Source: Bacteroidetes bacterium MED-G21 | GTDB lineage: Bacteria; Bacteroidota; Bacteroidia; Flavobacteriales; UBA7430 | NCBI GenBank assembly: GCA_002457305.1 | Contig: NTKG01000008.1 | Span: 1 to 34,910 of the forward strand | Direction of reading: 5' to 3' | DNA length: 34,910 nucleotides | Shown: piece after piece, positions 7,807 through 30,297 of the stretch | Layout: each line of letters starts with the position of its first letter | Position numbering within the stretch: the stretch's first letter is position 1 | Position numbers and translations under genes: made by a program | The notes under the pieces: generated by a model | Database searches by the model: none | Seen by the model: only the letters and a program-made list of their open reading frames with translations | What the model was told of the DNA's origin: nothing

Positions 7807-8802
7807 CTAAAATTTAGGGCATTTTATTGCTTTTAGCTTTTTTCTTTTCTGTCTACATGCCAATTGAATGGTTAAAGACACTTCATGAGCACCTCCAGAG
7901 GAACCCATAAGTTCTGAAATCGTATAGTCATAACTATAACCTAAACGTATCCCATTAGATTCATATCCTAGTACAACTAAAATTGCATCTGAGTTAGAGA
8001 AGTTATTTCTAAAGTAAAGCCCCCCCGAAAGACTTTCGTTGGTTAAAGACACCCCCAAGTTTAATTGATTAGCACCATTTTGAGACATGTAAAGAATGTT
8101 TGGTGTAATAAAAGGTCCGTCTTGAATTAGTCCAATATTTTTAGCGCGTCCTATAGAAATGTTTGTTCCTGCATGAACTGTTAACCTTTTAGGGAGATTA
8201 CTATCAGTGATGTAAGAATCTTCTGGTTCAGAAACATGATGTAGTGCTGCACCTAAGAAATGTTTTTGATTGTATATCCCAAACATCCCAAGCGACACAT
8301 CAGCATAGCTTACATTATCTGCAAACTCATCTAGATTTTCACCAGTTTGGAAGATGAATCCATAATTTGGGTCAATTTGATCACCGAAAAACAATTTAGT
8401 TTTATCTAGTGCTCTCTGTTGGTAACTTGCCTGAATTCCTGTTAAAATAATAAGCTTTCGGGATGCTTGCAAATGATATGAATAAGTCAAATTAATTTGA
8501 GTATTTGTTAAAGCACCCTCTCCTTGAATGTCATTCAGTATTTGAAGTCCCATACCACCATGAAGTTCTTCAAACCCTTTGTCCATTGAAATACTATTGG
8601 TAATGTATGCACCTTTCAAATTTGGCCATTGATTTCTGTGATTCATTGCAACACGAGGACAGTTTGCAGATCCTGCCATAGCAGGGTTTAGGTATAAAGG
8701 ATTTGCATAAAACTGAGTAAACGATGGATCCTGAGCGTAAGCAGTTTGAGAAAAAGCTAAAAAAACGACCGCCACTAAGGCGTATAATTTATTTTTAATC
8801 AT
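7807..8802 (-). CDS. PorP/SprF-family type IX secretion outer-membrane protein
   Basis: 331 residues with an N-terminal signal peptide ending QTAYAQ. DPSFTQFYANPLYLNPAMAGS is the hallmark opening of the PorP/SprF family, followed by RVAMNHRNQWPN and beta-barrel-like amphipathic strands (FTTPNILYMSQNGANQLNLGVSL-like region). Family members sit in the outer membrane; PorP is part of the core machine, and SprF-type paralogues help secrete or anchor a particular adhesin. No large adhesin (SprB-like) gene is next to it, so its position between gldJ and porU suggests a role tied to the core system, though a paralogue function cannot be excluded. It ends 56 bp before gldJ begins; both may be one transcript. 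Confidence 0.9.
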   Translation of the reverse strand: MIKNKLYALVAVVFLAFSQTAYAQDPSFTQFYANPLYLNPAMAGSANCPRVAMNHRNQWPNLKGAYITNSISMDKGFEELHGGMGLQILNDIQGEGALTNTQINLTYSYHLQASRKLIILTGIQASYQQRALDKTKLFFGDQIDPNYGFIFQTGENLDEFADNVSYADVSLGMFGIYNQKHFLGAALHHVSEPEDSYITDSNLPKRLTVHAGTNISIGRAKNIGLIQDGPFITPNILYMSQNGANQLNLGVSLTNESLSGGLYFRNNFSNSDAILVVLGYESNGIRLGYSYDYTISELMGSSGGAHEVSLTIQLACRQKRKKLKAIKCPKF

Positions 8803-8983
8803 ACCAGTTTCGGGTTATAAAGCACAATAATACAATATTTTTTGAAATTTTGTACTAATTCCAATTATCTAAATAATTTCTCTGTGTGCAATGAAATAAT
8901 TATGCCAAAAGCAACTTTTAATATTACAATATTTGGTTACAATTAACGTTATTTGCATAATATAATTAAGCAGTGTTAAATAT
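8803..8983. promoter_or_regulatory. Divergent intergenic region between porP-like gene and porU
   Basis: 181 bp, very AT-rich, with both flanking genes reading outward, so promoters for both must lie here. I see only imperfect boxes: TATTATTG on minus at 8832-8825 and TTTG/TTATTTG pieces on plus at 8932-8955. No inverted repeat or small gene is evident. Confidence 0.4.
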
Positions 8984-11900
8984 ATGAACCATTTTTTAAT
9001 TACTTTTTCTTTATTCACCTGTTTAACGATGAGTTCATTAATAGCTCAAAATTCTACAGATGTTTCGATTAAATGGGGTTCCCCAGTTAGTCATTTTTTT
9101 GAATCAGAAGAATTAAAGACTTTAAGTTTTGATGGTGCTTTTTATAATTTACATGAATCTTCTTTTCCTTTGTATCAGGAGAAAATTAGATTACCTCAGA
9201 ATGTTAGTCAGGTAGAGGTTGATGTAGATGTTCTAGAAACAAGTGCTTTGTTGTCTTCCGAGAAAAACCTACTTCAAACAGATGTGCCAAATAAAACATT
9301 AAGTTGGAGCATATCATACGAACGAAAAATCCCATATCTTATTTTTACTTATATCCCTATTTACGAAGGCGTTAAGGTGAATAGATTTAAGTATTCTGTA
9401 AATTTAACTTATCAAGAGCCCAATATTAAGCCTAAGAATAATTCTACTAACTCTGTTCTTTCTAGTGGCGATTGGTATAAAATAAAATTGAGTAATGATG
9501 GCCTTTATAAAATTGATGCTGATTTTTTAGGTGATATTGGTGTTAATGTGTCTGAAATAGATCCAAGGAAGATTCAGATTTATGGAAATGGTGGTGCAAT
9601 GTTACCTGAGTATAATGACTCATTTAGATACCATGATCTTGTAGAAAATCCTATTCGAGTTGTGGGAGAAGAAGACGGTAGTTTTGATCAAAATGATTTT
9701 ATTGTGTTTTATGGAGAGTCGCCACACCGTTGGGAGTTGAATTCTGACAATGATTTTGAACATGTTCAAAATATATATGATAACAACAATTATTACTTCT
9801 TACATCTAGGCGATTCATTTGGAAAACGAGTTTCTATTTCTCAAGCGGAGGAAATGGAGAATGTTGAGGTCAATTTTTTTACTGAAAGAAAGTTTCATGA
9901 ATGGGAAGATCAAAATTTAAAAAATACCGGAAGACAATGGTTTGGTGAGTACTTTAATTTTAATGAACAGTACACCATAAATTTCAATTTTTCTGATCGA
10001 ATAAAGACTGAGCCTATTAGCATTAAGGCAAGAGCGGTTGCAAGATCTGATTCTCCAACATGGCTAGATTTTGCTCATAATGGCAGTGAGGTTTTAAGAG
10101 TGCCAATTGATACCCAAATAAGCGCCGAAATTTATGTCGATGATGGTGAAGCCTCTAGTGAATTTACCTCTATGGACAATACAATTAGCATTGGTGTTTC
10201 TTACGATAAAAATGGCAATTCTTCCGCTTTTGCATACTTAGATTACATTGAGATACAGGCGAAATGTGAGCTCAAATACAATGCCGGACAGCTCGTTTTT
10301 AGTGAGCCTTCTTCGGTTGGACCTGAGGCTGTAACTAAATTTAATGTCACTTCAAATTTAGCCTCATTTATTGTTTGGGATGTTACAGATCCAGCTGCTA
10401 TTTCTCAAATGGAAGTTGATGAAAACTTTAGTTTTAAGTCTACAACAGATATTCTTAAAACTTTTGTTATTCATGATTTAAATTCAGGCTCTTATCTAAC
10501 CCCTATTTTTGATGCTAAAATTGAAAACCAAAATCTTCATGGACATCAGCCTGCCGATTTTATTATTGTTACAGCTCCGGCGTTTTTAGATGCAGCTGAG
10601 CGTCTTGCTTCAATACACACCGAACAAGATGGGATGACAGTAAATATTGCTACAACAGACCAGATTTACAATGAATTTAGTTCTGGTAAACAGGACTTGA
10701 TTGCTATTAGGTCTTACCTTAGATGGTTGTATGATAAGGCTGAAACGGAAGATGACATGCCAGATAATGTGCTTTTATTTGGTGATGCCAGTTTTGATTA
10801 TAAAGGAATTGGTGTGGCCAATAACCGTTATTCAGATCAGAATTTTGTGCCAACATTTCAGTCAGAATATTCCTTTAAATTAGGTACATCATATTGTACA
10901 GACGATTTTATTGCTTATTTAGATGCCTCAGAAGGTGCTCAAGAAACAATGAGCTCCGATGATATGGATATAGGTGTTGGAAGAATGGTTGTTCAATCAA
11001 TATCTGAGGCTGAAGCTATGGTAGATAAGGTTGTGAATTATAAGTCTGTAAATTCTTTTGGTGATTGGAGATCTAATATTTGTTTTGTAGCTGATGATAT
11101 TGATGATGATCTTTGGGAATTTCGTTTGCAAGAAAATATTGATGCTATTGCTAAAGAGATTGATACAGCTTATCATAATTATAATATAAATAAGATTTAT
11201 TTAGATGCATATCAGCAGGTGTCTTCTTCCGGTGGCCAGCGTTATCCCGATGCCAGACAAGCAATTGTTGATAATGTAAATAAAGGTGCTTTAATTATCC
11301 ATTATTATGGCCATGGAGGAGAAGTAGGTTGGGCTGAAGAACGTGTTTTAGAATTGATCGATATCAATTCCTGGGAGAATTTTAATAACATGCCCGTTTT
11401 TGTGACCGCTACCTGTGAGTTTTCTCGATATGATGATGCTCAGCGCGTCTCTGCTGGTGAACAGGTTCTTTTAAACCCTGAAGGTGCAGGCATAGCTTTA
11501 TTTACAACAACTCGAACAATAACAGAGACTGATGCTGAAAATTTATCTCATTCTTTTTATAAATATGCACTTCCCGAGAGTGCTGGTGGAGTTTTAACTT
11601 TTGGCCAACTTATGAGAAACCTAAAAAATGATCTTAACTCTACAGGGATTTCAGCGACAAATAAGTTAAAATTTACCCTATTGGGTGACCCTGCTTTAAA
11701 ATTACCAATTCCTCAATTAAATGTTGTGGTAACTGAGATATTCAACCCCAATACCAATGAACAGATTGACACATTAAATGCATTGTCTACAGTTAAGGTA
11801 AAAGGTGCTGTACTCACAGAAGATGGTTATGTAATGGATTCTTTTAACGGTGTGCTAAAGCCTAAAGTTTATGATAAGCCTATTACACTTCAAACTTTAA

Positions 11901-12802
11901 AAAATGATTTTGAGGATTTGGAGCCTTTTAATTTTGACTTGCAGCAAAGTATTTTATATGCTGGTAATGTCAGTGTAGAAGAAGGTTTGTTTGAATTTGA
12001 ATTTGTTGTACCACAAGATATCTCTTATGCAGATGGTTTTGGGAAATTTTCTTTTTACGCATATAATGAAGAACAGGATGCTATAGGTGCTCATGTAGAT
12101 GTTATTATTGGCGGTTTTGATGAAGATGCAGAAGTAGATAACACCGGGCCGCTTATAGATTTGTATATGAATAATACCGATTTTAGGTATGGAGGTATCA
12201 CTGATGCTAACCCAAGTCTTTATGCAGTGATTTCAGATGATTCAGGGATTAATACCACCGGTAATGGTATTGGGCACGATCTTGTAGCAACCTTAGATGA
12301 TGACAGTCAATCTTCTGTTGTTTTAAACAATTATTATGAGTCGGATATGGATTCCTACCAAAGTGGTGTGGTTTCTTACCCTTATTCGAATCTTGAAGAG
12401 GGTGTACACCAATTAAAAATTAAAGTATGGGATGTACATAATAATTCTTCTGAAGCTTTTACCGAGTTTGTTGTGGTAGCTAATGAAGGTTTGGTTTTAG
12501 AGAATTTAATGAATTATCCTAATCCGTTTAGCGATTTTACTAGAATTCATTTTGAGCACAATCGACCAGATGATCAATTTGATGTCCGATTGGATATTTA
12601 TGATATGAATGGGAAAAGAATAAAGTCTGTAAGTCGATCTATTTCTAGCGGATCATATGCCAATTCTGACTTTACATGGGATGGTAGGTCTGATCATGGA
12701 GCTGCTTTAAATAGTGGTATTTATATTTGTAAAGTGTTTATATCATCTGACGAATTACAGACTGAAAGTGCTATTAGCAATCAAATGATACTAATAAAGT
12801 AA
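8984..12802 (+). CDS. porU: PorU, type IX secretion sortase (C25 gingipain-like peptidase)
   Basis: 1272 residues. PorU cuts the C-terminal sorting domain of type IX cargo at the cell surface and links cargo to anionic lipopolysaccharide in Porphyromonas gingivalis. There is a signal peptide (1-22, ending SSLIAQ), a long N-terminal beta region, then the caspase-like C25 domain (about 520-910): ADFIIVTAPAFLDAAERLA, PDNVLLFGDASFDYKG, the catalytic His777 in YYGHGGEVGW and the catalytic Cys811 in FVTATCEFSRYDD. The C-terminus (about 1175-1272, NLMNYPNPFSDFTRIHF ... GIYICKVFI) is a type A-like sorting domain, as in known PorU, which keeps its CTD. It is followed 49 bp later by porV, its partner in the attachment complex. 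Confidence 0.95.
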   Translation: MNHFLITFSLFTCLTMSSLIAQNSTDVSIKWGSPVSHFFESEELKTLSFDGAFYNLHESSFPLYQEKIRLPQNVSQVEVDVDVLETSALLSSEKNLLQTDVPNKTLSWSISYERKIPYLIFTYIPIYEGVKVNRFKYSVNLTYQEPNIKPKNNSTNSVLSSGDWYKIKLSNDGLYKIDADFLGDIGVNVSEIDPRKIQIYGNGGAMLPEYNDSFRYHDLVENPIRVVGEEDGSFDQNDFIVFYGESPHRWELNSDNDFEHVQNIYDNNNYYFLHLGDSFGKRVSISQAEEMENVEVNFFTERKFHEWEDQNLKNTGRQWFGEYFNFNEQYTINFNFSDRIKTEPISIKARAVARSDSPTWLDFAHNGSEVLRVPIDTQISAEIYVDDGEASSEFTSMDNTISIGVSYDKNGNSSAFAYLDYIEIQAKCELKYNAGQLVFSEPSSVGPEAVTKFNVTSNLASFIVWDVTDPAAISQMEVDENFSFKSTTDILKTFVIHDLNSGSYLTPIFDAKIENQNLHGHQPADFIIVTAPAFLDAAERLASIHTEQDGMTVNIATTDQIYNEFSSGKQDLIAIRSYLRWLYDKAETEDDMPDNVLLFGDASFDYKGIGVANNRYSDQNFVPTFQSEYSFKLGTSYCTDDFIAYLDASEGAQETMSSDDMDIGVGRMVVQSISEAEAMVDKVVNYKSVNSFGDWRSNICFVADDIDDDLWEFRLQENIDAIAKEIDTAYHNYNINKIYLDAYQQVSSSGGQRYPDARQAIVDNVNKGALIIHYYGHGGEVGWAEERVLELIDINSWENFNNMPVFVTATCEFSRYDDAQRVSAGEQVLLNPEGAGIALFTTTRTITETDAENLSHSFYKYALPESAGGVLTFGQLMRNLKNDLNSTGISATNKLKFTLLGDPALKLPIPQLNVVVTEIFNPNTNEQIDTLNALSTVKVKGAVLTEDGYVMDSFNGVLKPKVYDKPITLQTLKNDFEDLEPFNFDLQQSILYAGNVSVEEGLFEFEFVVPQDISYADGFGKFSFYAYNEEQDAIGAHVDVIIGGFDEDAEVDNTGPLIDLYMNNTDFRYGGITDANPSLYAVISDDSGINTTGNGIGHDLVATLDDDSQSSVVLNNYYESDMDSYQSGVVSYPYSNLEEGVHQLKIKVWDVHNNSSEAFTEFVVVANEGLVLENLMNYPNPFSDFTRIHFEHNRPDDQFDVRLDIYDMNGKRIKSVSRSISSGSYANSDFTWDGRSDHGAALNSGIYICKVFISSDELQTESAISNQMILIK

Positions 12803-12803
12803 G

Positions 12804-12830
12804 TTTGTCGTTATTAAATTTATAAATTTG
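12804..12830 (+). promoter_or_regulatory. Candidate porV promoter
   Basis: TTTG at 12804-12807 and a perfect -7 box TAAATTTG at 12823-12830. The 15-bp spacing is a little short against the usual 17-23. The -7 box lies 21 bp before the preferred porV start at 12852 and overlaps a longer possible start at 12828, which argues against the latter. Confidence 0.5.
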
Positions 12831-12851
12831 CCCAGGTTAAATTATTATAAC

Positions 12852-14060
12852 ATGAGAAAAATATCTTTAACAGTACTAGCAGGTGTCCTACTAAATATGA
12901 GTTCATTAGCGCAGTCTCCAACGGCTTTTGATTCGTTTGAAGGAGAGTTAAATACAATTTCAACATCAGTTCCTTTTTTGCTTATTGCTCCCGATTCTCG
13001 GGCAGGGGCCATGGGAGATGTTGGTGCAGCGACTTCACCAGACCATAATTCCATTCATTGGAATGCATCTAAACTTGCTTTTATCGAAGATGATAGAGGT
13101 GTTTCAATGTCATATACACCTTGGCTTCAAGATCTTGTTCCTGAAATTAGCTTAAGTTATTTGTCTGGATTTAAAAGACTAAATTCTAGGAGTACTTTTG
13201 CAGGTAGTATGCGCTATTTTTCCTTAGGAGAAATTCAATTTACTGATGCTCAAGGACAATTTATATCAAATTTTAATCCCAATGAATTTACGATAGATGG
13301 TGCATATGCCATGAAACTATCCAAGAATTTTTCTTCAGGTTTGGCAATGCGTTATATCTTTTCAAACTTAACAGGAGGAATCCAAGTTCCGGATGGAGGA
13401 GGTGCCACAAAACCTGGAACTTCTTTTGCGGTTGATTTATCCTCGTATTTTCAAAGCGATAAATTTGATATAGATGATAAAGAAGCATATTTCGCTGCGG
13501 GTTTTAACATCTCTAATATTGGTAATAAAATTTCTTACACAGATGGTGGTGAAGAGCATTTTTTACCTACAAATGGTCGCTTAGGTGCAAACCTGTTTAT
13601 GGAGTTAGATGATTACAATACCGTATCTTTTGCTTTTGATATAAATAAATTACTAGTTCCAACGCCACCTAAATATGATTCCTTAGCGACTGTTCCTGGC
13701 CCAGAAAATATTATTTCAGGTCAAGATCCTAATGTTGGAGTGCTTCAAGGTATTTTTCAGTCCTTTTCAGATGCGCCTGGTGGCTTCCAAGAAGAGCTCA
13801 ATGAGTTAATGTATTCTGTGGGTGCAGAATATTGGTATATGAAACAGTTTGCATTTCGTGGCGGTTATTTTCATGAGCATGCAACTAAAGGGGCAAGAAA
13901 GTATTTTACAGTAGGGGTAGGTTTAAAAATGAACGTATTTTCTTTAGATATGGCATTTTTGTTGCCAGCAACACGTGGTGTTAGAAGTCCTTTGGCAAAC
14001 ACGCTTCGTTTTACCTTGTTATTTGATATGGCTGCTTTATATGCAACCGACAAAGATTAG
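12852..14060 (+). CDS. porV: PorV, type IX secretion outer-membrane protein
   Basis: 402 residues from ATG 12852, which gives a clean signal peptide (MRKISLTVLAGVLLNMSSLAQ). A start at 12828 would put eight residues ahead of it and overlap the -7 promoter box. PorV is a FadL-like outer-membrane barrel that takes cargo from the translocon SprA and passes it to PorU. Family marks are PFLLIAPDSRAGAMGDVGAATSPDHNSIHWNASKLAF near the N-terminus, MSYTPWLQDLVPEISLSYLSG, and the closing barrel strands GLKMNVFSLDMAFLLPATRG...LRFTLLFDM. Directly after porU, as in other Bacteroidota. Confidence 0.94.
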   Translation: MRKISLTVLAGVLLNMSSLAQSPTAFDSFEGELNTISTSVPFLLIAPDSRAGAMGDVGAATSPDHNSIHWNASKLAFIEDDRGVSMSYTPWLQDLVPEISLSYLSGFKRLNSRSTFAGSMRYFSLGEIQFTDAQGQFISNFNPNEFTIDGAYAMKLSKNFSSGLAMRYIFSNLTGGIQVPDGGGATKPGTSFAVDLSSYFQSDKFDIDDKEAYFAAGFNISNIGNKISYTDGGEEHFLPTNGRLGANLFMELDDYNTVSFAFDINKLLVPTPPKYDSLATVPGPENIISGQDPNVGVLQGIFQSFSDAPGGFQEELNELMYSVGAEYWYMKQFAFRGGYFHEHATKGARKYFTVGVGLKMNVFSLDMAFLLPATRGVRSPLANTLRFTLLFDMAALYATDKD

Positions 14061-17456: not shown

Positions 17457-17918
17457 CTATAAAATAATATGCTTGTCAATACTTTGTTCGAGTGATATAA
17501 TTGTCTCTGTGCGTTGTATACCCTTTATTGATTGAATTTCTTCGTTTAGAATTTGTCTCATATGTTTGGTGTTTTTGCATCTAATCTTTGCAAAAATACT
17601 GTATACACCTGTTGTATAATGCGCTTCTACAATTTCGGGTATGAGGTTTAGTTGTTGAATGACATCTGTGTAGGTGGATCCTTTTTCAAGGTAAATTCCT
17701 AAAAAAGCTGTCAGATCGAATCCTAATAGTTCGTAATTTATATGCAGCCTGCTGTTTTTAACGATGCCTGCTTCTTCCATTTTTTTCATTCTTACATGAA
17801 TGGTTCCGGCTGAAACAATTAATTTTTTAGCGATTTCTGTGTAAGGCACTTTTGCATTTATCATGAGTTCGCTTAATATGCCCCGATCTATATTGTCAAT
17901 TTGATAATTTGACTCCAT
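17457..17918 (-). CDS. Lrp/AsnC family transcriptional regulator
   Basis: 153 residues. The N-terminal winged helix-turn-helix (about 8-60: IDRGILSELMINAKVPYTEI, then IVSAGTIHVRMKKMEEAGIV) is followed by the RAM/AsnC ligand-binding domain (about 70-150: FLGIYLEKGSTYTDVIQQL, GVYSIFAKIRCK, IQSIKGIQRTETIISL). Members bind DNA as octamer-like assemblies and respond to amino acids, often leucine. Its neighbour across the tRNA gene is the branched-chain 2-oxoacid dehydrogenase operon, a plausible target, but this is inference. The length is that of a typical full member. Confidence 0.92.
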   Translation of the reverse strand: MESNYQIDNIDRGILSELMINAKVPYTEIAKKLIVSAGTIHVRMKKMEEAGIVKNSRLHINYELLGFDLTAFLGIYLEKGSTYTDVIQQLNLIPEIVEAHYTTGVYSIFAKIRCKNTKHMRQILNEEIQSIKGIQRTETIISLEQSIDKHIIL

Positions 17919-18003: not shown

Positions 18004-18036
18004 TTTGTAATTTATACTAATGTTTTTGTACATTTA
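18004..18036 (+). promoter_or_regulatory. Candidate promoter of the unusual tRNA gene
   Basis: TTTG at 18004-18007 and TACATTTA at 18029-18036 (one mismatch to TAnnTTTG), spaced 21 bp. Transcription would start near 18040, about 20 nt ahead of the mature 5' end. Confidence 0.4.
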
Positions 18037-18061: not shown

Positions 18062-18169
18062 TGTGGGGTGATGAAATTGGCAGACATGCCCTCCTGTCTC
18101 GAGGGTGGAGGATCTGGAATAAATCATAAGACTAACCACTCCGTGAAGGTTCGAATCCTTCTCCTACAG
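18062..18169 (+). tRNA. Unusual class II tRNA with GUC (Asp) anticodon and long variable arm
   Basis: A complete cloverleaf of 108 nt can be drawn. Acceptor TGTGGGG (18062-18068) pairs with TCCTACA (18162-18168) with two G-U pairs; the discriminator is G18169 and CCA is not encoded. The D arm ATG/CAT (18071-73, 18085-87) has the loop AAATTGGCAGA, a leucine-tRNA-type loop. The anticodon stem CCCTC/GAGGG (18089-93, 18101-05) closes the 7-nt loop CTGTCTC, anticodon GTC at 18096-98. The T arm is GAAGG-TTCGAAT-CCTTC. The variable region is 39 nt (18106-18144): TG, stem GGAG/CTCC, CGT-like end as in tRNA-Leu, but with about 28 nt where about 4 are usual. Aspartate identity bases G34, U35, C36, C38, G73 and G2-C71 are present; position 37 is U instead of a purine. 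It may be a functional tRNA-Asp variant, a regulatory tRNA-like RNA, or a decayed tRNA. Confidence 0.65.
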
Positions 18170-18170: not shown

Positions 18171-18209
18171 AAAAAAAAATCCTTATTCATTTAGAATAAG
18201 GATTTTTTT
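18171..18209. terminator. Bidirectional terminator between the tRNA gene and the paaZ operon
   Basis: Hairpin ATCCTTATTC-ATTTA-GAATAAGGAT flanked by an A run (18171-18179) and a T run (18202-18208), so it can stop transcription in both directions: the tRNA gene from the left, and the 2-oxoacid dehydrogenase end of the paaZ operon from the right. Confidence 0.88.
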
Positions 18210-20349: not shown

Positions 20350-21120
20350 TTATTTTTTCTTGAATTTGTTGATGGCTTGACGTGTGAAGTCTGAAAGTAC
20401 AAGTTTGCCACTCATAGCTGCTCTTTCTATCAATAAGCTGTCCCAGTGTTCTGTTCCTTCCCAGAAAACTTTTTTGAGCATTTGCATGGCTTCTGGATTA
20501 GATTTTGAGAGCGTTGTTGTCAATTTGGCAATGGCTTCATCCATCTCTTCAACTGTTTCGAAAACGTCTGTATAAAGTCCTTTTTCTTTTGCCCACTGTG
20601 CTGTTTGCCATTCTGTTGCATTAATGGATAGTTGACTCATCGCAGAGGTTCCTATTTTACGTTCTACAGCAGGTCCTACGACGAATGGGCCTATGCCTAC
20701 AGCCAACTCACTTAATTTTACAGAAGCAAATTTGGTCGCCATACAGTAGTCTACAGCTGATGCCATACCAACGCCACCACCAACTGCTTTACCTTGAACG
20801 CGACCAATGATGATTTTTGGACATTTTCGCGCAGCGTTAATGACATTGGCGAAGCCGCTAAAGAAAATTTTACCGGTTTCTAAATTATCTATGCTGATGA
20901 GTTCATCAAAAGAAGCGCCTGCGCAGAAAGCTCTTTCACCAGCACTTTTTAGGATGATAACAGTTACCTCATCATTATTTCCCATTTCTGTAATTGTTTT
21001 GGCGAGTTCTTGCAATACTTTTCCCGGCAGTGAATTACTTAAAGGGTGGTGAAATTCGATGCTTGCTATATGGTTTTTGATGGATACATTTACGCCACCT
21101 TCTTCGATAGGATTTCCCAT
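20350..21120 (-). CDS. Enoyl-CoA hydratase/isomerase (crotonase) family protein with one catalytic Glu
   Basis: 256 residues, crotonase fold. Visible are the oxyanion-hole segments GERAFCAGASFDEL and VQGKAVGGGVGMASAVDYC. Lining it up without gaps with rat mitochondrial hydratase puts Gly118 where Glu144 should be, while Glu138 (KLSEL) matches Glu164. Loss of the first glutamate usually means isomerase, hydrolase or other chemistry rather than plain hydration. It sits between paaZ (1 bp upstream) and the 2-oxoacid dehydrogenase E1 gene (2 bp downstream), so it probably acts in phenylacetate or branched-chain acyl-CoA breakdown. It is not a clear PaaF, and PaaG is the separate gene at 31869. 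Confidence 0.85.
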   Translation of the reverse strand: MGNPIEEGGVNVSIKNHIASIEFHHPLSNSLPGKVLQELAKTITEMGNNDEVTVIILKSAGERAFCAGASFDELISIDNLETGKIFFSGFANVINAARKCPKIIIGRVQGKAVGGGVGMASAVDYCMATKFASVKLSELAVGIGPFVVGPAVERKIGTSAMSQLSINATEWQTAQWAKEKGLYTDVFETVEEMDEAIAKLTTTLSKSNPEAMQMLKKVFWEGTEHWDSLLIERAAMSGKLVLSDFTRQAINKFKKK

Positions 21121-21121
21121 A

Positions 21122-23170
21122 TTATTTGCTTTGATCTAATTTTTTAACCATTGTTAAAATCGTAGCTATGGCTACGGTTTCTCCTGTTTCGTCATAAACA
21201 TCTACTAAGAATTTTACGATTCCTTTAGCGATATCTTCTTCAGAGCGTTTTTCCTGGTCTACTTTTTCTTTTACGGTAAATCTTACGCCAATGGTGGCTC
21301 CTGCATAGACAGGTTTTACAAATCGACATTCTTCCAATCCGTAGTTCAGTAAAACAGGCCCTTTTTTTGCATCAACAAATAAGCCTGCTGCTGCCGAAAG
21401 GATAAAATATCCATGGGCGACACGTTCTTCAAATATAGTTCCGTCTAAAGAAGTAACATCTGTATGTGCATAGAAATGATCCCAGGAAACATTGGCAAAG
21501 TTGACAATATCTCCTTCGGTAATTGTTCTCTTTTGCGTGAACACGGTTTCACCAATTTCCAATTCTTCGAAATGTTTTCGGAACACATGAACATCGTTTT
21601 CTGTTTGTGCTGCACCGTATTGGAATACATTGGTAACCTTTGTAATACTTGTTGGATGACCCTGAACGGCTGTGCGTTGTAAGTAGTGCATCACACCACG
21701 TTTTCCACCCATCTCTTCACCACCACCGGCACGCCCTGGACCACCATGAGTTAACATAGGCATTGGCGAACCATGACCCGTACTTTCTTTGGCACAATCT
21801 GCGTTTAAGATTAAGATGCGTCCATGATTGGCAGCTGCACCCATCACAAATTCTTTGGCGATGCTGTCATCTGCAGTAATAATGGAACATACTAAAGAAC
21901 CTTTCCCCATTTTAGCCAATTCAATAGCTTCCTCAATGTTCTTGTATGGCATAATGGTACTTACAGGGCCAAAGGCTTCAATATTGTGACAATCGGTTTT
22001 AGTAAAAGGATCGTCGTTTAAGAATAGTATAGGCGCTAAGAAGGCTCCTTTTTCTTTGTCTGCTCCTACAACATCGAAATGATTTAAGTCACCGTAAACA
22101 ATCTCTTGAGATTTTGAAAGTTCTAAGACTTTCTCTTTTACTTCTTCTCTTTGCTCCAATCCGGCAAGTGATCCCATGCGAACTCCTTCAACAGATGGAT
22201 CTCCAAGGGTTGTTTTTGCCAATCGTTTTCCCAAAGCAATTTGTACATCTTCGACCTTATTAGCAGGAACGATGATACGGCGAATGGCTGTACATTTCTG
22301 TCCCGCCTTCACTGTCATTTCTTTTTGAACTTCTTTTATGAAAATATCGAATTCTATGTCGCCTGGATTCACATCATCACCCAAAACACAGCAGTTTAAT
22401 GAATCGGCTTCCATATTGAAAGGAACAGATTCGTTAACAATGTTTTCATGTGCCTTTAGCATTCTACCTGTAGAAGCAGATCCAGTAAAGGTAACCACAT
22501 CTTGAGAAGTCACTTTATCTAAAATACCTCTTGCGGAACCACATATCAATTGTAAACTTCCTTCTGGAAGAATACCGGTATCGATGATTTCTTTTACCAT
22601 TAATTCAGTTAGGTAACAGGTAACGGTTGCAGGTTTTACAATTGCAGGAACACCAGCTAAGAGGTTCACTGAAATTTTTTCTAACATTCCCCATATTGGG
22701 AAATTGAATGCGTTAATGTGAATGGCAACGCCTTGTTTTGGAACACAGATATGTTGTCCGATAAAGCTTCCACCTTTAGAAAGTGGTGCTGTTTCACCAT
22801 CTACATAAAAAGTTTCGTCTGGAAATTGTTTTCTTAAACTTGCGTAAGTAAATAGATTTCCAATTCCTCCTTCAATATCAATCCATGAATCTAATTTTGT
22901 CGCTCCAGTTTGAGCACTTAGTGCATAGAATTTATCTTTAATAGAAATGAGGTGAAGTGCTAAAGCTTTTAACATTCTCCCTCTTTCATGAAAGGTCATT
23001 TTTCGTAAGGTAGGGGCACCTACTTCACGTGCATAATCCATCATTTCACCGAAGTCTAAACCTTTGCTGCTTGTTTCTGCAATTTTAGCTCCAGTAATGG
23101 CATTATATAATGCCTGTCCTTCTCCTTCTCCAGCAGTCCATTTTCCTAATACATAGTTTTTAAGTTCCAT
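21122..23170 (-). CDS. paaZ: PaaZ, bifunctional oxepin-CoA hydrolase / semialdehyde dehydrogenase
   Basis: 682 residues, matching the 681-residue E. coli enzyme. PaaZ opens the oxepin-CoA ring and oxidises the resulting semialdehyde to 3-oxo-5,6-dehydrosuberyl-CoA with NADP. The N-terminal aldehyde dehydrogenase domain (1-520) has Glu254 in FNMEADSLN and catalytic Cys293 in VKAGQKCTAIRR, matching E. coli Glu256 and Cys295. The C-terminal MaoC-like hydratase (about 535-682) has Asp564 and His569 in NVSWDHFYAHTD, matching E. coli Asp561/His566. Both active sites look intact. First gene of a three-gene operon. Its leader holds a promoter box and a perfect inverted repeat. Confidence 0.95.
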   Translation of the reverse strand: MELKNYVLGKWTAGEGEGQALYNAITGAKIAETSSKGLDFGEMMDYAREVGAPTLRKMTFHERGRMLKALALHLISIKDKFYALSAQTGATKLDSWIDIEGGIGNLFTYASLRKQFPDETFYVDGETAPLSKGGSFIGQHICVPKQGVAIHINAFNFPIWGMLEKISVNLLAGVPAIVKPATVTCYLTELMVKEIIDTGILPEGSLQLICGSARGILDKVTSQDVVTFTGSASTGRMLKAHENIVNESVPFNMEADSLNCCVLGDDVNPGDIEFDIFIKEVQKEMTVKAGQKCTAIRRIIVPANKVEDVQIALGKRLAKTTLGDPSVEGVRMGSLAGLEQREEVKEKVLELSKSQEIVYGDLNHFDVVGADKEKGAFLAPILFLNDDPFTKTDCHNIEAFGPVSTIMPYKNIEEAIELAKMGKGSLVCSIITADDSIAKEFVMGAAANHGRILILNADCAKESTGHGSPMPMLTHGGPGRAGGGEEMGGKRGVMHYLQRTAVQGHPTSITKVTNVFQYGAAQTENDVHVFRKHFEELEIGETVFTQKRTITEGDIVNFANVSWDHFYAHTDVTSLDGTIFEERVAHGYFILSAAAGLFVDAKKGPVLLNYGLEECRFVKPVYAGATIGVRFTVKEKVDQEKRSEEDIAKGIVKFLVDVYDETGETVAIATILTMVKKLDQSK

Positions 23171-23202
23171 ATAATCTTTTAAATCTATTTTATCCTTTGA
23201 TT

Positions 23203-23236
23203 AAGCTCCTATGGAGCTTGGCAAGTTACAAAAATA
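23203..23236 (-). promoter_or_regulatory. paaZ -7 element with a perfect inverted repeat just downstream
   Basis: The minus strand has the -7 box TATTTTTG (23236-23229, exact TAnnTTTG). About 9 bp past it comes the perfect 7-bp inverted repeat AAGCTCC-TAT-GGAGCTT (23203-23219), which would fall at the very start of the mRNA. It could be an operator for a paa repressor or a 5' stabilising hairpin. No T run follows it on the minus strand, so it is not a terminator. The -33 element is unclear. Confidence 0.5.
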
Positions 23237-23316
23237 TAGATGTTCTTGATTTATCTTAGAGAGAGAATCCGTGAATATGATTCTGTTGAATTTGTTTTAT
23301 TTGATAAAATCAATTC

Positions 23317-24135
23317 TTAGTCAAGTCTACTTTCTAACCAACTTAGTGTGTATGCAAAGAGTGTTTCATGCGTCTTGTCGTTGTGAGGTTCGTGTTTTGT
23401 ATTTTCAAAAATTTTGCATTTCGCTAATCCCTTACTGTTTTCTGTAAATTCAACTGTTCCATGACTGCTGATGATGGCATCATCTGCACCATGAACCAAT
23501 AAGGTCTCTACAGGTAGTTTATCTGCATTTTTAATAGCCCATTTTCCAGCTTCATAAAAATCTGAAAACAATCGTACAGAAATTTTATCATGATTTAAAG
23601 GATCTGTAACATAAGCCTCACATACTGATGGCTCATTTGAAAGATGGTTGGCGTCTATTTTGCTGTTTTGCGTAAAACCTGGTGCAATTTTGTTCATTAC
23701 ATTAGCCATTGCAAATTCGAGTATATTAGGTTGTTTAGCTAATTCAAACCAGGCAGAAGATAAAACGGCTCCACTTAGATAGTTTGGTTGTTTTCGCAAT
23801 AAAAAATTAGCTAAAACATTTCCTCCAAAACTGTGTCCATATATAAAAAGATGTTCTTTTGGAATGGTTTGAATAACCCGTTCTAAGTCATCCAAATTAA
23901 ACTCTATTCCCGGCGAATGACCACGTTTACCTTCTGATTTACCATGACCTCTTTGGTCGAAAGTAAATACGTTAAATCCATGTTCAGCGTAAAACTTTGC
24001 AACATGTGCATACCTTTCTTGGTGCTCACCTAAACCATGAATAATGCAAAGCGTACCTTTTGCATTTTCAATCTTATACCAATGCGTAACATGAAGGTTT
24101 AGATGGTCTGTTGTTTGAACTTTATATGAATGCAT
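23317..24135 (-). CDS. Alpha/beta hydrolase, monoacylglycerol lipase / lysophospholipase-like
   Basis: 272 residues, no signal peptide, a single Hydrolase_4 domain. Oxyanion-hole segment LCIIHGLGEHQERY (29-42), FTFDQRGHGKSEGKRGH (58-73), nucleophile Ser102 in IYGHSFGGN, an acid in LLVHGADDAI and His in NTKHEPHND near the end: a full Ser-Asp-His triad. The RGHGKSEGKRGH pattern is typical of monoglyceride lipases and lysophospholipases. Being divergent from glpK (118 bp apart), a role in freeing glycerol from monoacylglycerols is attractive but inferred from context. Confidence 0.85.
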   Translation of the reverse strand: MHSYKVQTTDHLNLHVTHWYKIENAKGTLCIIHGLGEHQERYAHVAKFYAEHGFNVFTFDQRGHGKSEGKRGHSPGIEFNLDDLERVIQTIPKEHLFIYGHSFGGNVLANFLLRKQPNYLSGAVLSSAWFELAKQPNILEFAMANVMNKIAPGFTQNSKIDANHLSNEPSVCEAYVTDPLNHDKISVRLFSDFYEAGKWAIKNADKLPVETLLVHGADDAIISSHGTVEFTENSKGLAKCKIFENTKHEPHNDKTHETLFAYTLSWLESRLD

Positions 24136-24154
24136 TTTGAGTTTTTGATTTTCT

Positions 24155-24162
24155 CAAATTTA
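24155..24162 (-). promoter_or_regulatory. Probable -7 element of the alpha/beta hydrolase gene
   Basis: Minus strand reads TAAATTTG, exact TAnnTTTG, 19 bp before the start codon at 24135. On plus, glpK has only weak matches in the same intergenic stretch (TAAATTG near 24224). Confidence 0.45.
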
Positions 24163-24253
24163 CATTTTTTCATGCTTATGAATAAATGGATCTCTATTTT
24201 TATGCGTGCATACTATTTTTATGTAAATTGTCCATAAGTTAATATTTATCATC

Positions 24254-25738
24254 ATGTCAAAATTTATAATCGCATTAGATCAGGGTACTACGAGCTCTAG
24301 AGCTGTCTTATTCGACGATAAAGGAATGTGTTTAGCGATTAAGCAAAAGGAGTTTCGTCAAATATTTCCTCAACAAGCCTGGGTAGAACACGATCCTAAA
24401 GAAATATGGGAGACTCAGGAGGCGGTTCTTAATGAAATATTAGAGCTTCCGGAAGTGAAACAAGGCAAAGTTCTTTCAATAGGTGTTACAAATCAAAGAG
24501 AAACGACCGTTATTTGGAATCGACTCACGGGTGAGCCTATACACAATGCTTTGGTTTGGCAAGACAAGAGAACAGCACCTATTTGTGAGGATTTACGCAA
24601 ACAAGGTCTTGTAGATTATTGTAAGAAAAATACCGGATTGGTGATTGACTCCTATTTTTCAGGAACGAAAATTAAATGGATTTTAGATCATGTAGAAGGG
24701 TCGAGAGAAAAGGCTGAGAAGGGAGAATTATGTTTTGGAACGATTGATACTTGGTTGCTATGGAACTTAACAAAAGGAGGCGCTCATGCTACCGATTATT
24801 CTAATGCTTCTCGTACTTTAATATACAATATAATTGATTTAGCCTGGGATGAAAAAATGTTAGAAGCACTTCAAATTCCAAAGTCTATTTTACCAGAAGT
24901 TAAAGATTCTGCCAGTTATTTTGGAACCTATGAGTCTTCTGTTGGTTCTATTCCTATTTGTGCTATGGTAGGCGACCAACAATCGGCTTTATTTGGACAG
25001 GCCTGTTTTGAAAAGGGTATGGCTAAAAATACTTACGGTACGGGTTGTTTTTTATTAATGAATACAGGTTTAGAAATTCAGGACTCTCCATCGGGTTTAT
25101 TAAACACCATTGCTTGGGGACTTGATGGAACAATTACCTATGCTTTAGAAGGATCTGTTTTTGTTGCGGGAGCAGCTGTGCAATGGTTACGAGATGGATT
25201 ACAAATAATTGAAAATGCCGAAGAATCAGATACGATAGCTAACTCTACAGAAGATAAAGATGTTTATGTGGTTCCTGCCTTTGCAGGTCTTGGTACGCCG
25301 TATTGGGATATGTATTCTAGGGGAGCTATTTTTGGTTTGACTCGAGATACAGGAAAAAACCATCTTATAAAAGCGACTTTAGAATCTTTGGCCTATCAAT
25401 CTAAAGATGTTTTAGATGCCATGCAGAAAGATTCTGGTATTCAGCTTCAAAAATTACAAGTTGACGGGGGTGCTTGTGCAAATGATTATTTGATGCAATT
25501 TCAAGCCGATGTTTTAGGTGTCAGAATAGAACGACCTGAAATGATTGAGAGTACTGCCATCGGTGCTGCTTATTTAGCTGGTTATGGCGTGGGTTTGTGG
25601 TCTTTAGATGAAATAAATCAAAAGAGAAAGATCAATCAAGTTTTTGAAGTTCAAAGAAGTGACCAGTGGAGAGCGCATAAAAGTAAGCGTTGGAATGAAG
25701 CGGTTAAAAGAACATTGAATTGGATAGAACCACTATAA
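24254..25738 (+). CDS. glpK: GlpK, glycerol kinase
   Basis: 494 residues, normal length. Phosphorylates glycerol with ATP to sn-glycerol 3-phosphate in the cytoplasm. FGGY-family motifs: N-terminal phosphate loop IIALDQGTTSSRAVLFD, VTNQRETTVIWNRLTGEP, NALVWQDKRTAPIC, FGTIDTWLLWNLTKGG, GDQQSALFGQACFEKGMAKNTYGTGCF, and the C-terminal ADVLGVRIERPEMIESTAIGAAYLAG. glpD starts 43 bp later on the same strand, so the two form an operon. Confidence 0.97.
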   Translation: MSKFIIALDQGTTSSRAVLFDDKGMCLAIKQKEFRQIFPQQAWVEHDPKEIWETQEAVLNEILELPEVKQGKVLSIGVTNQRETTVIWNRLTGEPIHNALVWQDKRTAPICEDLRKQGLVDYCKKNTGLVIDSYFSGTKIKWILDHVEGSREKAEKGELCFGTIDTWLLWNLTKGGAHATDYSNASRTLIYNIIDLAWDEKMLEALQIPKSILPEVKDSASYFGTYESSVGSIPICAMVGDQQSALFGQACFEKGMAKNTYGTGCFLLMNTGLEIQDSPSGLLNTIAWGLDGTITYALEGSVFVAGAAVQWLRDGLQIIENAEESDTIANSTEDKDVYVVPAFAGLGTPYWDMYSRGAIFGLTRDTGKNHLIKATLESLAYQSKDVLDAMQKDSGIQLQKLQVDGGACANDYLMQFQADVLGVRIERPEMIESTAIGAAYLAGYGVGLWSLDEINQKRKINQVFEVQRSDQWRAHKSKRWNEAVKRTLNWIEPL

Positions 25739-25781
25739 GTTTTAGGATTAGACAATAAACAACAACCTATTTTACTTAAAT

Positions 25782-27395
25782 ATGTACAACAGTTTAAATA
25801 GTACAAATAGAATTCAAAATCTAGAAAATGCTTTTGAAGTAAACTATGATATTATTGTTGTAGGTGGAGGAATTACGGGTTCTGGAATTGCTTTAGATGC
25901 TGCTTCTAGGGGAATGAAAGTTTTGCTTTTGGAGAAGCAAGACTTTGCTGCAGGAACAAGCTCGAGGTCTACCAAATTGATTCATGGTGGCTTACGTTAT
26001 TTGAAACAATTTAATTTTTCTTTGGTGAGACAAGTTGGACAAGAGCGCTCTATATTATATCAAAATGCCCCTTATTTAGTCTATCCCGAAAAACTTTTTT
26101 TACCAATTTATAAAACTGGAAAATTAGGTTATTCCTTAACTTCTTTTGCATTGTGGTTTTATGAATTTCTATCAGGTGTTCTAAAAAATGAGCGACGCAA
26201 AATGTTGTCTATGGAAGAGGCAGCTAAAGAAGAACCCATGCTTACTAAAGAAGGTTTATTAGGTGCTGGAGTTTATTACGAATACCGAACTGATGATGCT
26301 AGACTGACTATCGAAGTTTTAAAAACGGCGGTGAATTATGGAGCTCATGCTTTTAACTACATAGAGGTGAATAATTTTATTGAAAGCAATGGGGAAATCG
26401 CAGGGGTAAAAGCCACCGATCTTATCAATGGTACTTCATATAGCTTTAGGGCAAATTATGTTGTTAATGCTACCGGCCCATGGGTAGATCAATTACGAAA
26501 GAAAAATGCTGAAAAACTAGATAAACATCTGTGCCTTACTAAAGGTGTGCATTTGGTTTTTCCTCACAAAAAATTTCCAATAAAGCATTCGATGTATTTT
26601 GATGTTTCAGATGGGCGGATGATTTTTGCAGTAAAGCGCGATGATATTGTTTATTTAGGCACAACAGATACAGAATATCATGATCGATTGGAAGAGCCTA
26701 TTTGTACTCAAGAAGATGTGCAATATCTTTTGAAAGCGGCAAATAATATGTTTCCAACCCTTCATTTAAGTTCTGCGGACATCTGTTCTTCATGGGCTGG
26801 CTTAAGGCCGCTTATATATGAAAAAGGAAAGTCTCCCTCAGAAATTTCTCGTAAAGATGAAATTTTTGTTGCTAAAAATGGATTGATCTCTATAGCAGGT
26901 GGGAAGTTAACAGCCTATAGAAAAATGGCTCAAAAAGTGGTGGATCAAATCGTTAGAAAGGAAAAGCGATTTGGAAAGTGTAAAACAGATGCTGTTCTTT
27001 TGTGCGGTACTCAAGAAAAAGGTGCGGCTGCTTATGAGTCCATGAGAATTCGTTTGAAAAAATATGAGTCAAAATTTAATTCTGAGAAGCAGCTCATAAA
27101 ATTATTACATACCTATGGTGAGGCCTGTTTTAACATGCTCGAAAAAGCGGACGATATAAGCAGCCTTACATATGCGGAAATAGACTACTGTATAGAAAAT
27201 GAAGGATTGGAATATCTATCAGATTATTATATACGTAGATCAGCTAAAGCGCACTTTTCAATTGATGATACTAAACAGACGCTTCAGCAGGTGATTCAGT
27301 ATTATGCCTCAAAGAAAAATTTATTGGAACATCAAATTCAATTCGAAAAAGAACGCATTGATCATCTCTTTAGAACAACTTTGATTAAGTTCTAA
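25782..27395 (+). CDS. glpD: GlpD, FAD-dependent glycerol-3-phosphate dehydrogenase/oxidase
   Basis: 537 residues. Oxidises glycerol 3-phosphate to dihydroxyacetone phosphate, passing electrons to quinone at the inner face of the membrane, or to oxygen in oxidase forms. The FAD dinucleotide fold IIVVGGGITGSGIALDAASRG (about 25-45) is followed by the DAO-family segment GTSSRSTKLIHGGLRYLKQF, TDDARLTIEVLKTAVNYGA, NATGPWVDQLR, GTTDTEYHDRLEEP, AGLRPLI and SIAGGKLTAYRKMA. No E. coli-like GlpF or glp regulator is adjacent. Dehydrogenase or oxidase activity cannot be told from sequence reading alone. Confidence 0.93.
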   Translation: MYNSLNSTNRIQNLENAFEVNYDIIVVGGGITGSGIALDAASRGMKVLLLEKQDFAAGTSSRSTKLIHGGLRYLKQFNFSLVRQVGQERSILYQNAPYLVYPEKLFLPIYKTGKLGYSLTSFALWFYEFLSGVLKNERRKMLSMEEAAKEEPMLTKEGLLGAGVYYEYRTDDARLTIEVLKTAVNYGAHAFNYIEVNNFIESNGEIAGVKATDLINGTSYSFRANYVVNATGPWVDQLRKKNAEKLDKHLCLTKGVHLVFPHKKFPIKHSMYFDVSDGRMIFAVKRDDIVYLGTTDTEYHDRLEEPICTQEDVQYLLKAANNMFPTLHLSSADICSSWAGLRPLIYEKGKSPSEISRKDEIFVAKNGLISIAGGKLTAYRKMAQKVVDQIVRKEKRFGKCKTDAVLLCGTQEKGAAAYESMRIRLKKYESKFNSEKQLIKLLHTYGEACFNMLEKADDISSLTYAEIDYCIENEGLEYLSDYYIRRSAKAHFSIDDTKQTLQQVIQYYASKKNLLEHQIQFEKERIDHLFRTTLIKF

Positions 27396-27409
27396 TTTGA
27401 GTATATTTG
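27380..27409 (+). promoter_or_regulatory. Consensus promoter for the paaY-like gene inside the glpD 3' end
   Basis: TTTG at 27380-27383, 18-bp spacer, TATATTTG at 27402-27409: full match to the Bacteroidota promoter. The -33 box lies within the last codons of glpD. It places the paaY-like gene under its own control, with a leader of about 20 nt. Confidence 0.65.
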
Positions 27410-27434
27410 GAATAAGTACTTAAAAAAACGCAAA

Positions 27435-28028
27435 ATGATATTTGAATTTAACGGATACAAGCCAGTCATCCATCAAAGTGCTTTTATTCATCCGCAAGCT
27501 AATGTTACTGGGAATGTCATTATTGGTAAAGATGTTTATGTAGGTCCTGGTGCTACTATTAGAGGTGATTGGGGTGAAATCGTTATTGAAGATGGTTGCA
27601 ATGTTCAAGAGAATTGCGTCATTCATATGTTCCCAGGCACAACTGTAACCTTAAAGAAGGGTGCACATATTGGTCATGGTGCCGTTATTCATGGCGCAAC
27701 TATTGGAGATAATGTCTTGGTGGGTATGAATGCTGTTGTGATGGACGATTGTGAAATTGGAGCGAACAGTATTGTTGGTGCACTTTGCTTTATTCCTGCA
27801 AATACTATTATTGCTGAACGAAAAGTAGTGGTGGGAAATCCTGCAAAAGTGGTGAAAGATGTGAGTGATGAAATGATTGATTGGAAATCTAAAGGAACCG
27901 CACTGTATCAAAAGTTACCCAACGATTGTGTGCATGGATTAAAAGAATGTGAGCCACTAAGCGAAATTCCTGCCAATCGTCCTAAACAGGAAAATGCATA
28001 CAAGACATGGAAAAAGTCAAATAAATGA
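27435..28028 (+). CDS. paaY: PaaY-like hexapeptide-repeat thioesterase/acyltransferase
   Basis: 197 residues. A left-handed beta-helix of hexapeptide repeats (about 15-145: ANVTGNVIIGKDVYVGPGAT, IGDNVLVGMNAVVMDDCEIG) of the gamma-carbonic-anhydrase-like family. The His-containing stretches VIHMFPG and AHIGHGAVIHGATIG suit the trimer-interface metal site. The C-terminal LPNDCVHGLKECEPL matches the PaaY/CaiE subgroup. PaaY is a thioesterase that relieves CoA trapping by dead-end ring-CoA products. Paa genes on both sides support this; a plain gamma carbonic anhydrase-like protein is the alternative. Its stop overlaps the next gene's start by ATGA. Confidence 0.8.
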   Translation: MIFEFNGYKPVIHQSAFIHPQANVTGNVIIGKDVYVGPGATIRGDWGEIVIEDGCNVQENCVIHMFPGTTVTLKKGAHIGHGAVIHGATIGDNVLVGMNAVVMDDCEIGANSIVGALCFIPANTIIAERKVVVGNPAKVVKDVSDEMIDWKSKGTALYQKLPNDCVHGLKECEPLSEIPANRPKQENAYKTWKKSNK

Positions 28029-29098
28029 TGAAATTTATTTCCAATACGATTAGATTTTTTTTCCTGCTTATCAGTTTTTTTGCTTTGTATGTTATAGGTG
28101 CTATTTTACACGGAATGGCAACAGAGCATCATTTTCCAGATCAGCTTAAACTTTCAGAAGAGTTAGAGTTTGTTCAAGCTATTTCAGACACAACTTTTGA
28201 GTTTATTTCTTGGAATATAGGCTATATGGGTTTGGGAGAAGAATCTGATTTCTTTTATGATGGGGGCGAAGATGTATTCACATCCAAAGACTTAATTCAA
28301 AAGAATACGGATGGGATTATTGATTTCATTCAAGACCATTCTTATGTAGACTTTTTTCTTTTACAAGAAGTAGACAGTATGAGTTGGCGTTCTAATAAAC
28401 TCAATTTTTTTCAAAAAATAGAAAATTCTTGGCGGTACAACTACGCTTTAAATTATGCCTCTTCATTTGTTCCCATACCTATTTTTAATCCCTTAGGTCC
28501 TGTTTATGGAGGCCTATGTTCCATGACTCATTTTCCGGTAATAGATGCATTTAGATATGACTTGCGAACTGAAAGTGCATGGCCAAAGCGCCTCTTTTTT
28601 CTTAAAAGATGTTTTCTTACACAACGAATACCACTTTTAGAAAAGGAACTTATTGTGATTAACATTCATAATTCTGCTTATGATAAATCTGGAATTAAAA
28701 AGAATAAAGAGATGCAATATATATTGAATTTTGCCGAAAGAGAATTCGATAAAGGCAATTATGTGGTCATTGGTGGCGATTGGAATCAAAGCCCACCAAA
28801 CTATTCAAACAATACAATACCAGAATTATATAAAAACAGCTCATTTACAAATGATGATATTCCGCAAGACTGGAAGTGGGTAGCAGATGTTAATACGCCT
28901 ACCAATAGAAAGTTAAACATGCCTTATACTAAGGGTGTTAGTTATACCTCTGTAATCGATCATTATTTGATATCGCCAAATGTAAGCGTCGATTCTATTG
29001 CAGTGGTTGATATGCAGTTTAAATATTCTGACCACCAGCCGGTGTATCTTAAGGTTACTTTGGATAAGGGTTCAAACCAATTTAAACCCGCTCAATAA
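28025..29098 (+). CDS. Membrane-anchored endonuclease/exonuclease/phosphatase family protein
   Basis: 357 residues. An N-terminal membrane segment (about 9-27, IRFFFLLISFFALYVIGAIL) suggests anchoring with the catalytic domain outside the cytoplasm. EEP-fold motifs are FEFISWNIGYMGL, FFLLQEVDSMSW (metal-binding Glu), VIGGDWNQSP and the closing SDHQPVYLKV with the Asp-His pair. Substrates in this superfamily range from nucleic acids to sphingomyelin and inositol phosphates, so none is assigned. It overlaps the paaY-like gene by 4 bp (ATGA), a sign of translational coupling, and runs 17 bp into the convergent thiolase gene. Confidence 0.85.
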   Translation: MMKFISNTIRFFFLLISFFALYVIGAILHGMATEHHFPDQLKLSEELEFVQAISDTTFEFISWNIGYMGLGEESDFFYDGGEDVFTSKDLIQKNTDGIIDFIQDHSYVDFFLLQEVDSMSWRSNKLNFFQKIENSWRYNYALNYASSFVPIPIFNPLGPVYGGLCSMTHFPVIDAFRYDLRTESAWPKRLFFLKRCFLTQRIPLLEKELIVINIHNSAYDKSGIKKNKEMQYILNFAEREFDKGNYVVIGGDWNQSPPNYSNNTIPELYKNSSFTNDDIPQDWKWVADVNTPTNRKLNMPYTKGVSYTSVIDHYLISPNVSVDSIAVVDMQFKYSDHQPVYLKVTLDKGSNQFKPAQ

Positions 29099-30287: not shown

Positions 30288-30297
30288 AGCTAGAAAT

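Follow-up and report, generated by a model that had tools for sequence, protein, structure and literature searches.

A tRNA-shaped sequence that joins an aspartate anticodon to a long variable arm raises the question of whether it serves the ribosome and, if not, what else it may do. It lies on the forward strand at 18062-18169 of the window, by which we mean the whole 34,910-nt stretch of DNA analysed here. Our analyses suggested that it very probably belongs to a real, conserved family of class II tRNA-like RNAs that take no part in decoding. As for its function, the best reading, to which we assign a probability of about 0.52, is an aspartate-accepting, non-decoding class II tRNA that is linked to AsnC-type control and is carried by phages.

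Structure of the RNA

As read from the sequence, the mature RNA extends from U1 to G73 and is 108 nt long. Covariance model (CM) R1, built from 16 diverse copies (alignment A1), matched 18062-18169 in its own genome with 127.4 bits (E = 7.6e-34), the model including that very sequence, and homologues were also recovered by an independent DNA search. The general features of the tRNA fold are present: a cloverleaf, G18G19, a TTCGA T loop and an encoded C74 or CCA. The 5' strand of the acceptor stem, UGUGGGG (18062-18068), pairs completely with UCCUACA (18162-18168); pairs 4-7 covary between families, and U1-A72 and G2-C71 are essentially invariant. An eighth acceptor pair between C(-1) and G73, proposed in an earlier sequence-only reading, was not upheld, since position -1 varies (C 48, T 17, A 9). 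The D arm, AUG-AAAUUGGCAGA-CAU (18071-18087), has a 3-bp stem in which relatives carry AU/UA/GC and UA/CG changes. The anticodon arm, CCCUC-CUGUCUC-GAGGG (18089-18105), presents G34-U35-C36 (18096-18098) in the loop at 18094-18100, and the T arm, GAAGG-UUCGAAU-CCUUC (18145-18161), is paired in 99.5% of cells. The discriminator is G73 (18169).

The variable region comprises 39 nt (18106-18144). It contains an outer stem GGAG/CUCC (18107-18110/18139-18142; 100% of cells paired) and an inner stem UGG/CCA (18115-18117/18136-18138; 94% of cells paired), both with double-sided changes, then an internal loop AAUAAA/CUAA (18118-18123/18132-18135), of which AUAAA/CUAA is kept in most copies, and an apical mini-hairpin UC/GA (18124-18125/18130-18131). 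The sequence-only reading had noted an oversized variable arm and suspected a TGG/CCA helix within it. Both proved correct: outer and inner stems covary, and all three inner pairs do so, the inner helix being UAG/CUA, CAG/CUG or ACG/CGU elsewhere.

Conventional searches largely overlooked this RNA. ARAGORN called no tRNA at 18062-18169, and no Rfam 15 family reached its cut-off for the window RNA, with tmRNA, T-box and other Rfam families unmatched. The copy in the relative G002 was likewise uncalled in the ARAGORN/Rfam search. The gathering threshold of the Rfam tRNA family RF00005 was reached neither by the window copy nor by those at eight further loci that were scanned, and was exceeded by some phage copies, for example in G479, G481 and G482. 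An ordinary tRNA with a different fold was also considered and set aside; ARAGORN with introns and loosened scoring returned more than 100 calls in the window, which amounts to noise. An anti-Shine-Dalgarno-like CCUCC in the anticodon arm was discarded because relatives do not keep it. Single-sequence folding was uninformative (z = -0.71, no better than shuffles), and the case for the RNA therefore rests on comparison.

Covariation across the family

Among the 16 sequences of alignment A1, standard pairs made up 98.5% of pair cells, and 14 pairs had changed on both sides against a shuffled mean of 6.6. Among 74 distinct CM-aligned copies, in an alignment that was fitted to the structure and is hence biased towards it, 98.0% of pair cells were standard, double-sided change was seen in 22 pairs (13.5 in shuffled data) and double-change cells numbered 288 (64 in shuffled data). 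When the partner strand of the 74-copy alignment was slid by one column, pairing fell to about 52%. Compensatory changes, sought in related genomes, occurred in all seven helices of the RNA, in line with the earlier claim that the cloverleaf is complete and not a product of random decay. One copy (G163) lacks the long variable arm, keeps the rest and has a terminator-like hairpin on its 3' side.

A second type of the RNA, often in tandem with the first, bears a long apical insert with GGGUUGACCACUAAA that is common to several families. The motif was seen in the apical part of this paralogue at L064, L066, L060, L047, L061 and L063. In addition, GGUUGACC of the long-insert paralogue (GGUCGACC in L069 and L072) is self-complementary if G-U pairs are allowed, and the same is true of CGAGCUCG loops carried by tandem copies at L052, L053 and L076; these loops give hints of loop-loop dimerisation.

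Distribution in Bacteroidota and phages

A DNA search of relatives found the RNA in f9 and in the majority of genomes from f1, the family to which the window belongs, with two tandem copies in genus g2 of f1, and the D and anticodon arms were almost unchanged among f1 and f9 copies. A pattern scan of named genomes added Hymenobacter edaphi, H. jeollabukensis and Marinigracilibium pacificum, together with Saprospiraceae, Cytophagales and Flavobacteriales MAGs. Of 395 genomes sampled from the phylum, at least 38 contain the RNA according to CM R1, with matches of at least 88 bits and longer than 105 nt; ordinary tRNAs scored at most 60 bits and were generally 82-87 nt long, which leaves a clear score gap. 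Two matches, in G450 and G163, fall between 60 and 88 bits, and the copy of G180 is expanded. The RNA-bearing families are f1, f9, f17, f18, f19, f22, f23 and f24, plus f62 of another class, and two or more tandem copies are frequent within genomes. In f3 and f6, which belong to the order of the window, this CM search did not detect the RNA. In M. pacificum, three tandem copies (L043, 4343-4762) are followed after 154 bp by an isoleucyl-tRNA synthetase-like gene, as judged by eye.

Phages also carry the RNA. Pattern scans of IMG/VR yielded 33 uncultured phage contigs with it, all CM-confirmed at 74 bits or more. Their contexts, with genes named by eye, include T4-like contigs in which the RNA stands beside a large terminase-like gene, siphophage-like contigs, tRNA arrays and one contig beside a DnaB-like helicase gene. 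The RNA was the sole tRNA match in the phage records G479 (126 kb), G481 (88 kb) and G482 (24 kb), which may be incomplete records. Isolate phages and plasmids gave no blastn match to the RNA. An apparent gammaproteobacterial copy, in the Methylococcaceae MAG TMED69 (L041), was set aside: by eye, its contig is probably a phage contig misbinned into the genome, and it thus provides no evidence for the RNA in Gammaproteobacteria. This 305-kb contig (NHDW01000006.1) holds a tRNA cluster that includes a short-armed family member with an encoded CCA.

Our literature search, which reached subscription journals to a small extent, returned no description of such an RNA family. We regard the family as previously undescribed, and as unreported by ARAGORN and Rfam in the window.

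Organization of the gene and its AsnC-like neighbour

TTTG followed by TAnnTTTG is the promoter consensus of Bacteroidota. Upstream of the RNA, a likely promoter of this type was recognized by eye on the forward strand (18004-18036), consisting of TTTG (18004-18007), a 21-nt spacer and TACATTTA (18029-18036); TTTG and TA..TTT boxes of a comparable kind precede the RNA in several families. Downstream, the same strand offers a likely intrinsic terminator, read from the sequence as TCCTTATTC-ATTTA-GAATAAGGA followed by T7 (18180-18209). A consensus scanner did not list this terminator; a hairpin with a T-run, different in sequence, recurs 3' of the RNA in relatives. C74 (18170) is encoded, a C following G73 in 73 of 73 flanked copies, and the same holds for 28 of 30 ordinary tRNA genes of G002. 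From these signals we infer that the RNA is transcribed and processed. Leaders at L064, L066, L077 and L078 contain a boxA-like GTTCTTTAACAATTTG (or GTTCTTT) directly upstream of the RNA, and such leaders in some families resemble the antitermination signals of rRNA leaders.

A divergent gene on the reverse strand (17457-17918), 144 bp from the RNA, encodes an AsnC-like regulator. The NCBIfam AsnC model matched it with 172 bits (E = 5.7e-51), below the curated cut-off of 227, which makes 'AsnC-like' a fair name, and the Lrp model gave 56 bits. Neighbours across loci behaved similarly with the same NCBIfam models (AsnC 163-173 bits, Lrp 45-59). When the genes around 48 loci, selected only for bearing the RNA, were clustered, a divergent AsnC/Lrp-type regulator gene was found 88-240 bp upstream of the RNA at 32 of them, and at two f9 loci an AsnC-like gene lay 1.8 kb upstream; the next commonest neighbour cluster occurred at 8 of 48. 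No linked synthetase-like gene was common to the loci in this clustering.

The association with AsnC is widespread and not obligatory. The RNA stands elsewhere, away from the AsnC-like gene, in f19, in Hymenobacter and in some members of f22, and the f19 and f22 genomes examined still possess a close AsnC-like gene. The expectation that the RNA accompanies every AsnC homologue was not borne out, as none was found in 20 regions upstream of AsnC homologues from genomes in which the RNA is absent or placed elsewhere. At L223, L224 and L225, in the f17 genomes G100, G438 and G207, the AsnC-like gene is kept and no RNA was detected beside it. TTATAATTGGTT and a hairpin, which lie behind the RNA in other f17 genomes, persist at these loci, a pattern resembling a clean deletion of the RNA.

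Other neighbours were named by eye. At L011 (f9), an ammonium-transporter-like gene ends no more than about 10 bp from the start of the RNA, and the upstream sequences of L012 and L013 (f9) are like that of L011. The window also contains SprF/PorP-like, PorU-like and PorV-like type IX secretion genes (7807-14060) and a phenylacetate/fatty-acid degradation cluster (20350-33860; paaZ-, paaG-, paaH-, paaI- and paaE-like) with glpK and glpD in between.

Synthetase bases and ribosome bases

Bacterial aspartate identity has G73, G34, U35, C36 and C38 as strong determinants and G2-C71 as a minor one (PMC9976931). The window copy possesses all five strong determinants, and the Asp-type character claimed for it extends across the family. 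G73 was found in 83 of 83 alignment rows and G2-C71 in 73 of 73 copies. U35, C36 and C38 were each present in 70 of 70 CM-aligned copies and G34 in 67 of 70; these counts were taken from the CM alignment because U35, C36 and C38 are built into both the regular expression and the phage patterns, and the CM itself was built from sequences bearing these three bases, with some loci coming from the pattern scan. Position 34 departs from G (to C, A or U) in family f23 and one other genome. Other positions depart from the aspartate set: U1-A72 (72 of 73 copies) stands where bacterial tRNA-Asp invariably has G1-C72, and 12 of 81 copies keep G10.

The discriminator had been taken to argue against LeuRS, and G73 in place of A73 in all copies bears this out, so that charging by LeuRS appears disfavoured. 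The leucine-type class II body fared differently: class II is correct, and a purely leucine-type body is not, as the acceptor-end UGU/ACA and the D-loop UGGCA are shared with tRNA-Gln of G002. An origin from tRNA-Leu only was rejected on the same grounds, the acceptor end and UGGCA being nearer to tRNA-Gln. U1-A72, G2-C71 and G73 belong to the bacterial GlnRS acceptor set, and U35 is an element of all three identity sets, Gln, Glu and Asp, whereas GlnRS reads G36 and U38 (PMC9976931). The RNA thus carries the acceptor part of the tRNA-Gln set and lacks its anticodon part, with C36 and C38 invariant.

The bases that matter to the ribosome behave otherwise. Position 37 is a pyrimidine in 68 of 70 CM-aligned copies and a purine in two, and U33 is retained in 60 of 70, with A, C or G instead in separate families; all 28 ordinary tRNAs of G002 have both U33 and purine 37. 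An ordinary tRNA-Asp(GUC), which the sequence-only reading had proposed to look for, exists in G002 (98% complete), and two phage arrays of about 24 tRNAs each have an ordinary tRNA-Asp(GUC) and the RNA side by side. Given the loss of U33 in several lineages, the nearly universal pyrimidine at position 37 and the coexistence of an ordinary tRNA-Asp(GUC), the comparison gives good support to the view that the RNA is not a ribosomal decoder, and the suggested variant decoder loses its footing. Aspartylation is proposed mainly because the bases read by the synthetase are retained while those that serve the ribosome vary, and by our estimate its chances are even.

Comparison with known tRNA-like RNAs

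Two described groups come closest to the RNA. First, tRNA-Other of Bacillus cereus, a pseudo-tRNA, has no translation role, is poorly charged in vitro and has regulatory effects (PMC3399842). The RNA resembles it in being tRNA-like without a function in translation. However, tRNA-Other has a Trp (CCA) anticodon, occurs in Bacilli and is part of a larger transcript (PMC3399842), whereas the RNA described here is of class II, bears Asp determinants and a structured variable arm, has a likely promoter and terminator of its own, is broadly distributed within one phylum, and has AsnC linkage and phage copies. Second, allo-tRNAs are class II RNAs whose anticodons do not fit their bodies, GUC being among the commonest in the 8/4 type, and some are unusable for translation in E. 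coli (PMC7609411). They therefore qualify the earlier statement that no class II tRNA-Asp had been described, though they are 8/4 or 9/3 RNAs of the Ser type. Allo-tRNAs arrange the 12-bp domain as 8/4 or 9/3, carry SerRS (or AlaRS) elements and are found in Clostridia, Proteobacteria and Acidobacteria (PMC7609411); our RNA, in contrast, is 7/5, with a Leu/Gln-like core, AspRS elements and a bipartite variable arm, and is found in Bacteroidota and phages. Its 7-bp acceptor, 5-bp T stem and unconserved position -1 set it apart from tRNA-Ser as well. On the features compared, the RNA appears to belong to neither group.

Among ordinary tRNAs, bacterial tRNA-Asp(GUC) shares G73, G34, U35, C36, C38 and G2-C71 with the RNA, but the latter differs in its class II arm, U1-A72 instead of G1-C72, pyrimidine 37 and a dispensable U33. 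Bacterial tRNA-Leu is similar in class, in its 3-bp D stem and in its 11-nt D loop, and the next-best matches of CM R1 are tRNA-Leu-sized (82-87 nt); unlike it, the RNA has G73 rather than A73, a GUC loop and, in nearly all bacterial copies, a variable region of at least 38 nt.

Possible functions

In the aspartate-accepting reading, the RNA would be transcribed from its own promoter, divergently from the adjoining gene for an AsnC-like amino-acid-responsive regulator, would end at its own terminator, and would be trimmed and finished with CCA like a tRNA. It would take no part in ribosomal decoding, and aspartylated would be its likeliest state, as the conserved bases fit recognition by AspRS. 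It might then be used as an aspartate carrier for an extra-ribosomal reaction, or as a reporter of aspartate or AspRS status. Its gene may be under AsnC-type control, and phages carrying copies would presumably need the same function. The sequence, its fold and covariation, the distribution, the synteny, the phage copies and the lost decoding features are direct observations; transcription, processing, aspartylation and AsnC control are steps that we infer. The more specific proposal of a dedicated aspartate-carrying, non-decoding tRNA that acts outside ribosomal translation in a large part of Bacteroidota and in uncultured phages, with its gene paired with an AsnC-type regulator, is tentative and falls somewhat short of even odds.

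A tRNA-shaped regulatory RNA that acts uncharged is the strongest competitor, though an unlikely one. Its UCUC anticodon-loop core or variable apical loop would bind RNA or protein, and the tRNA fold would serve only processing and stability. Divergent placement beside a transcription regulator gene has a precedent in GcvA/GcvB and favours such a role, as do the conserved AUAAA/CUAA loop and the tandem paralogues, which differ in their apical loops while the long-insert type shares GGGUUGACCACUAAA across several families. But a base-pairing loop gives no reason to keep G73 and G2-C71, few parts of the RNA are as well conserved as the acceptor end and C74, and the apical loop is widely divergent and missing in G163.

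Charging by an enzyme other than AspRS, such as GlnRS or a dedicated synthetase paralogue, again with use outside translation, seems distinctly less probable. The bacterial Gln acceptor set (PMC9976931), the likeness to tRNA-Gln of G002 in UGU/ACA and UGGCA, and U35, which the Gln, Glu and Asp sets have in common, speak for it; invariant C36 and C38, against the G36 and U38 of GlnRS, and the lack of a linked synthetase-like gene shared by the loci speak against it. A role as decoy or guard tRNA in conflicts between phage and host, for instance against anticodon nucleases, would explain repeated capture by phages, in unrelated contexts and sometimes as the sole tRNA match. We consider it improbable, as chromosomal copies adjoin AsnC-like genes in most families, with no other recurrent neighbour seen, and no nuclease target is known. 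The chance that the RNA is a true unusual decoder, for example of GAC/GAU, or a suppressor inserting another amino acid is very slight: most copies do have a seven-base loop with GUC and U33 (60 of 70), but an ordinary tRNA-Asp coexists, pyrimidine 37 prevails (68 of 70), U33 gives way to A, C or G in separate families and position 34 varies. Finally, a decaying pseudogene or insertion-site remnant might be missed by ARAGORN and Rfam, yet it is refuted by conservation over many families with compensatory changes.

Significance of the RNA family

The usual finders overlook this RNA (ARAGORN in the window, Rfam for most copies examined) although it is conserved in many environmental Bacteroidota and turns up time and again in phages. 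By retaining the bases read by the synthetase and letting those used on the ribosome drift, the family amounts to a natural experiment in which the two constraints come apart. Culturable hosts, Hymenobacter and Marinigracilibium, make the RNA directly testable. Should it prove to be charged, the RNA would offer one of the few instances of a dedicated tRNA withdrawn from decoding, and would tie phage biology to an aminoacyl-tRNA synthetase and to a regulator that responds to amino acids.
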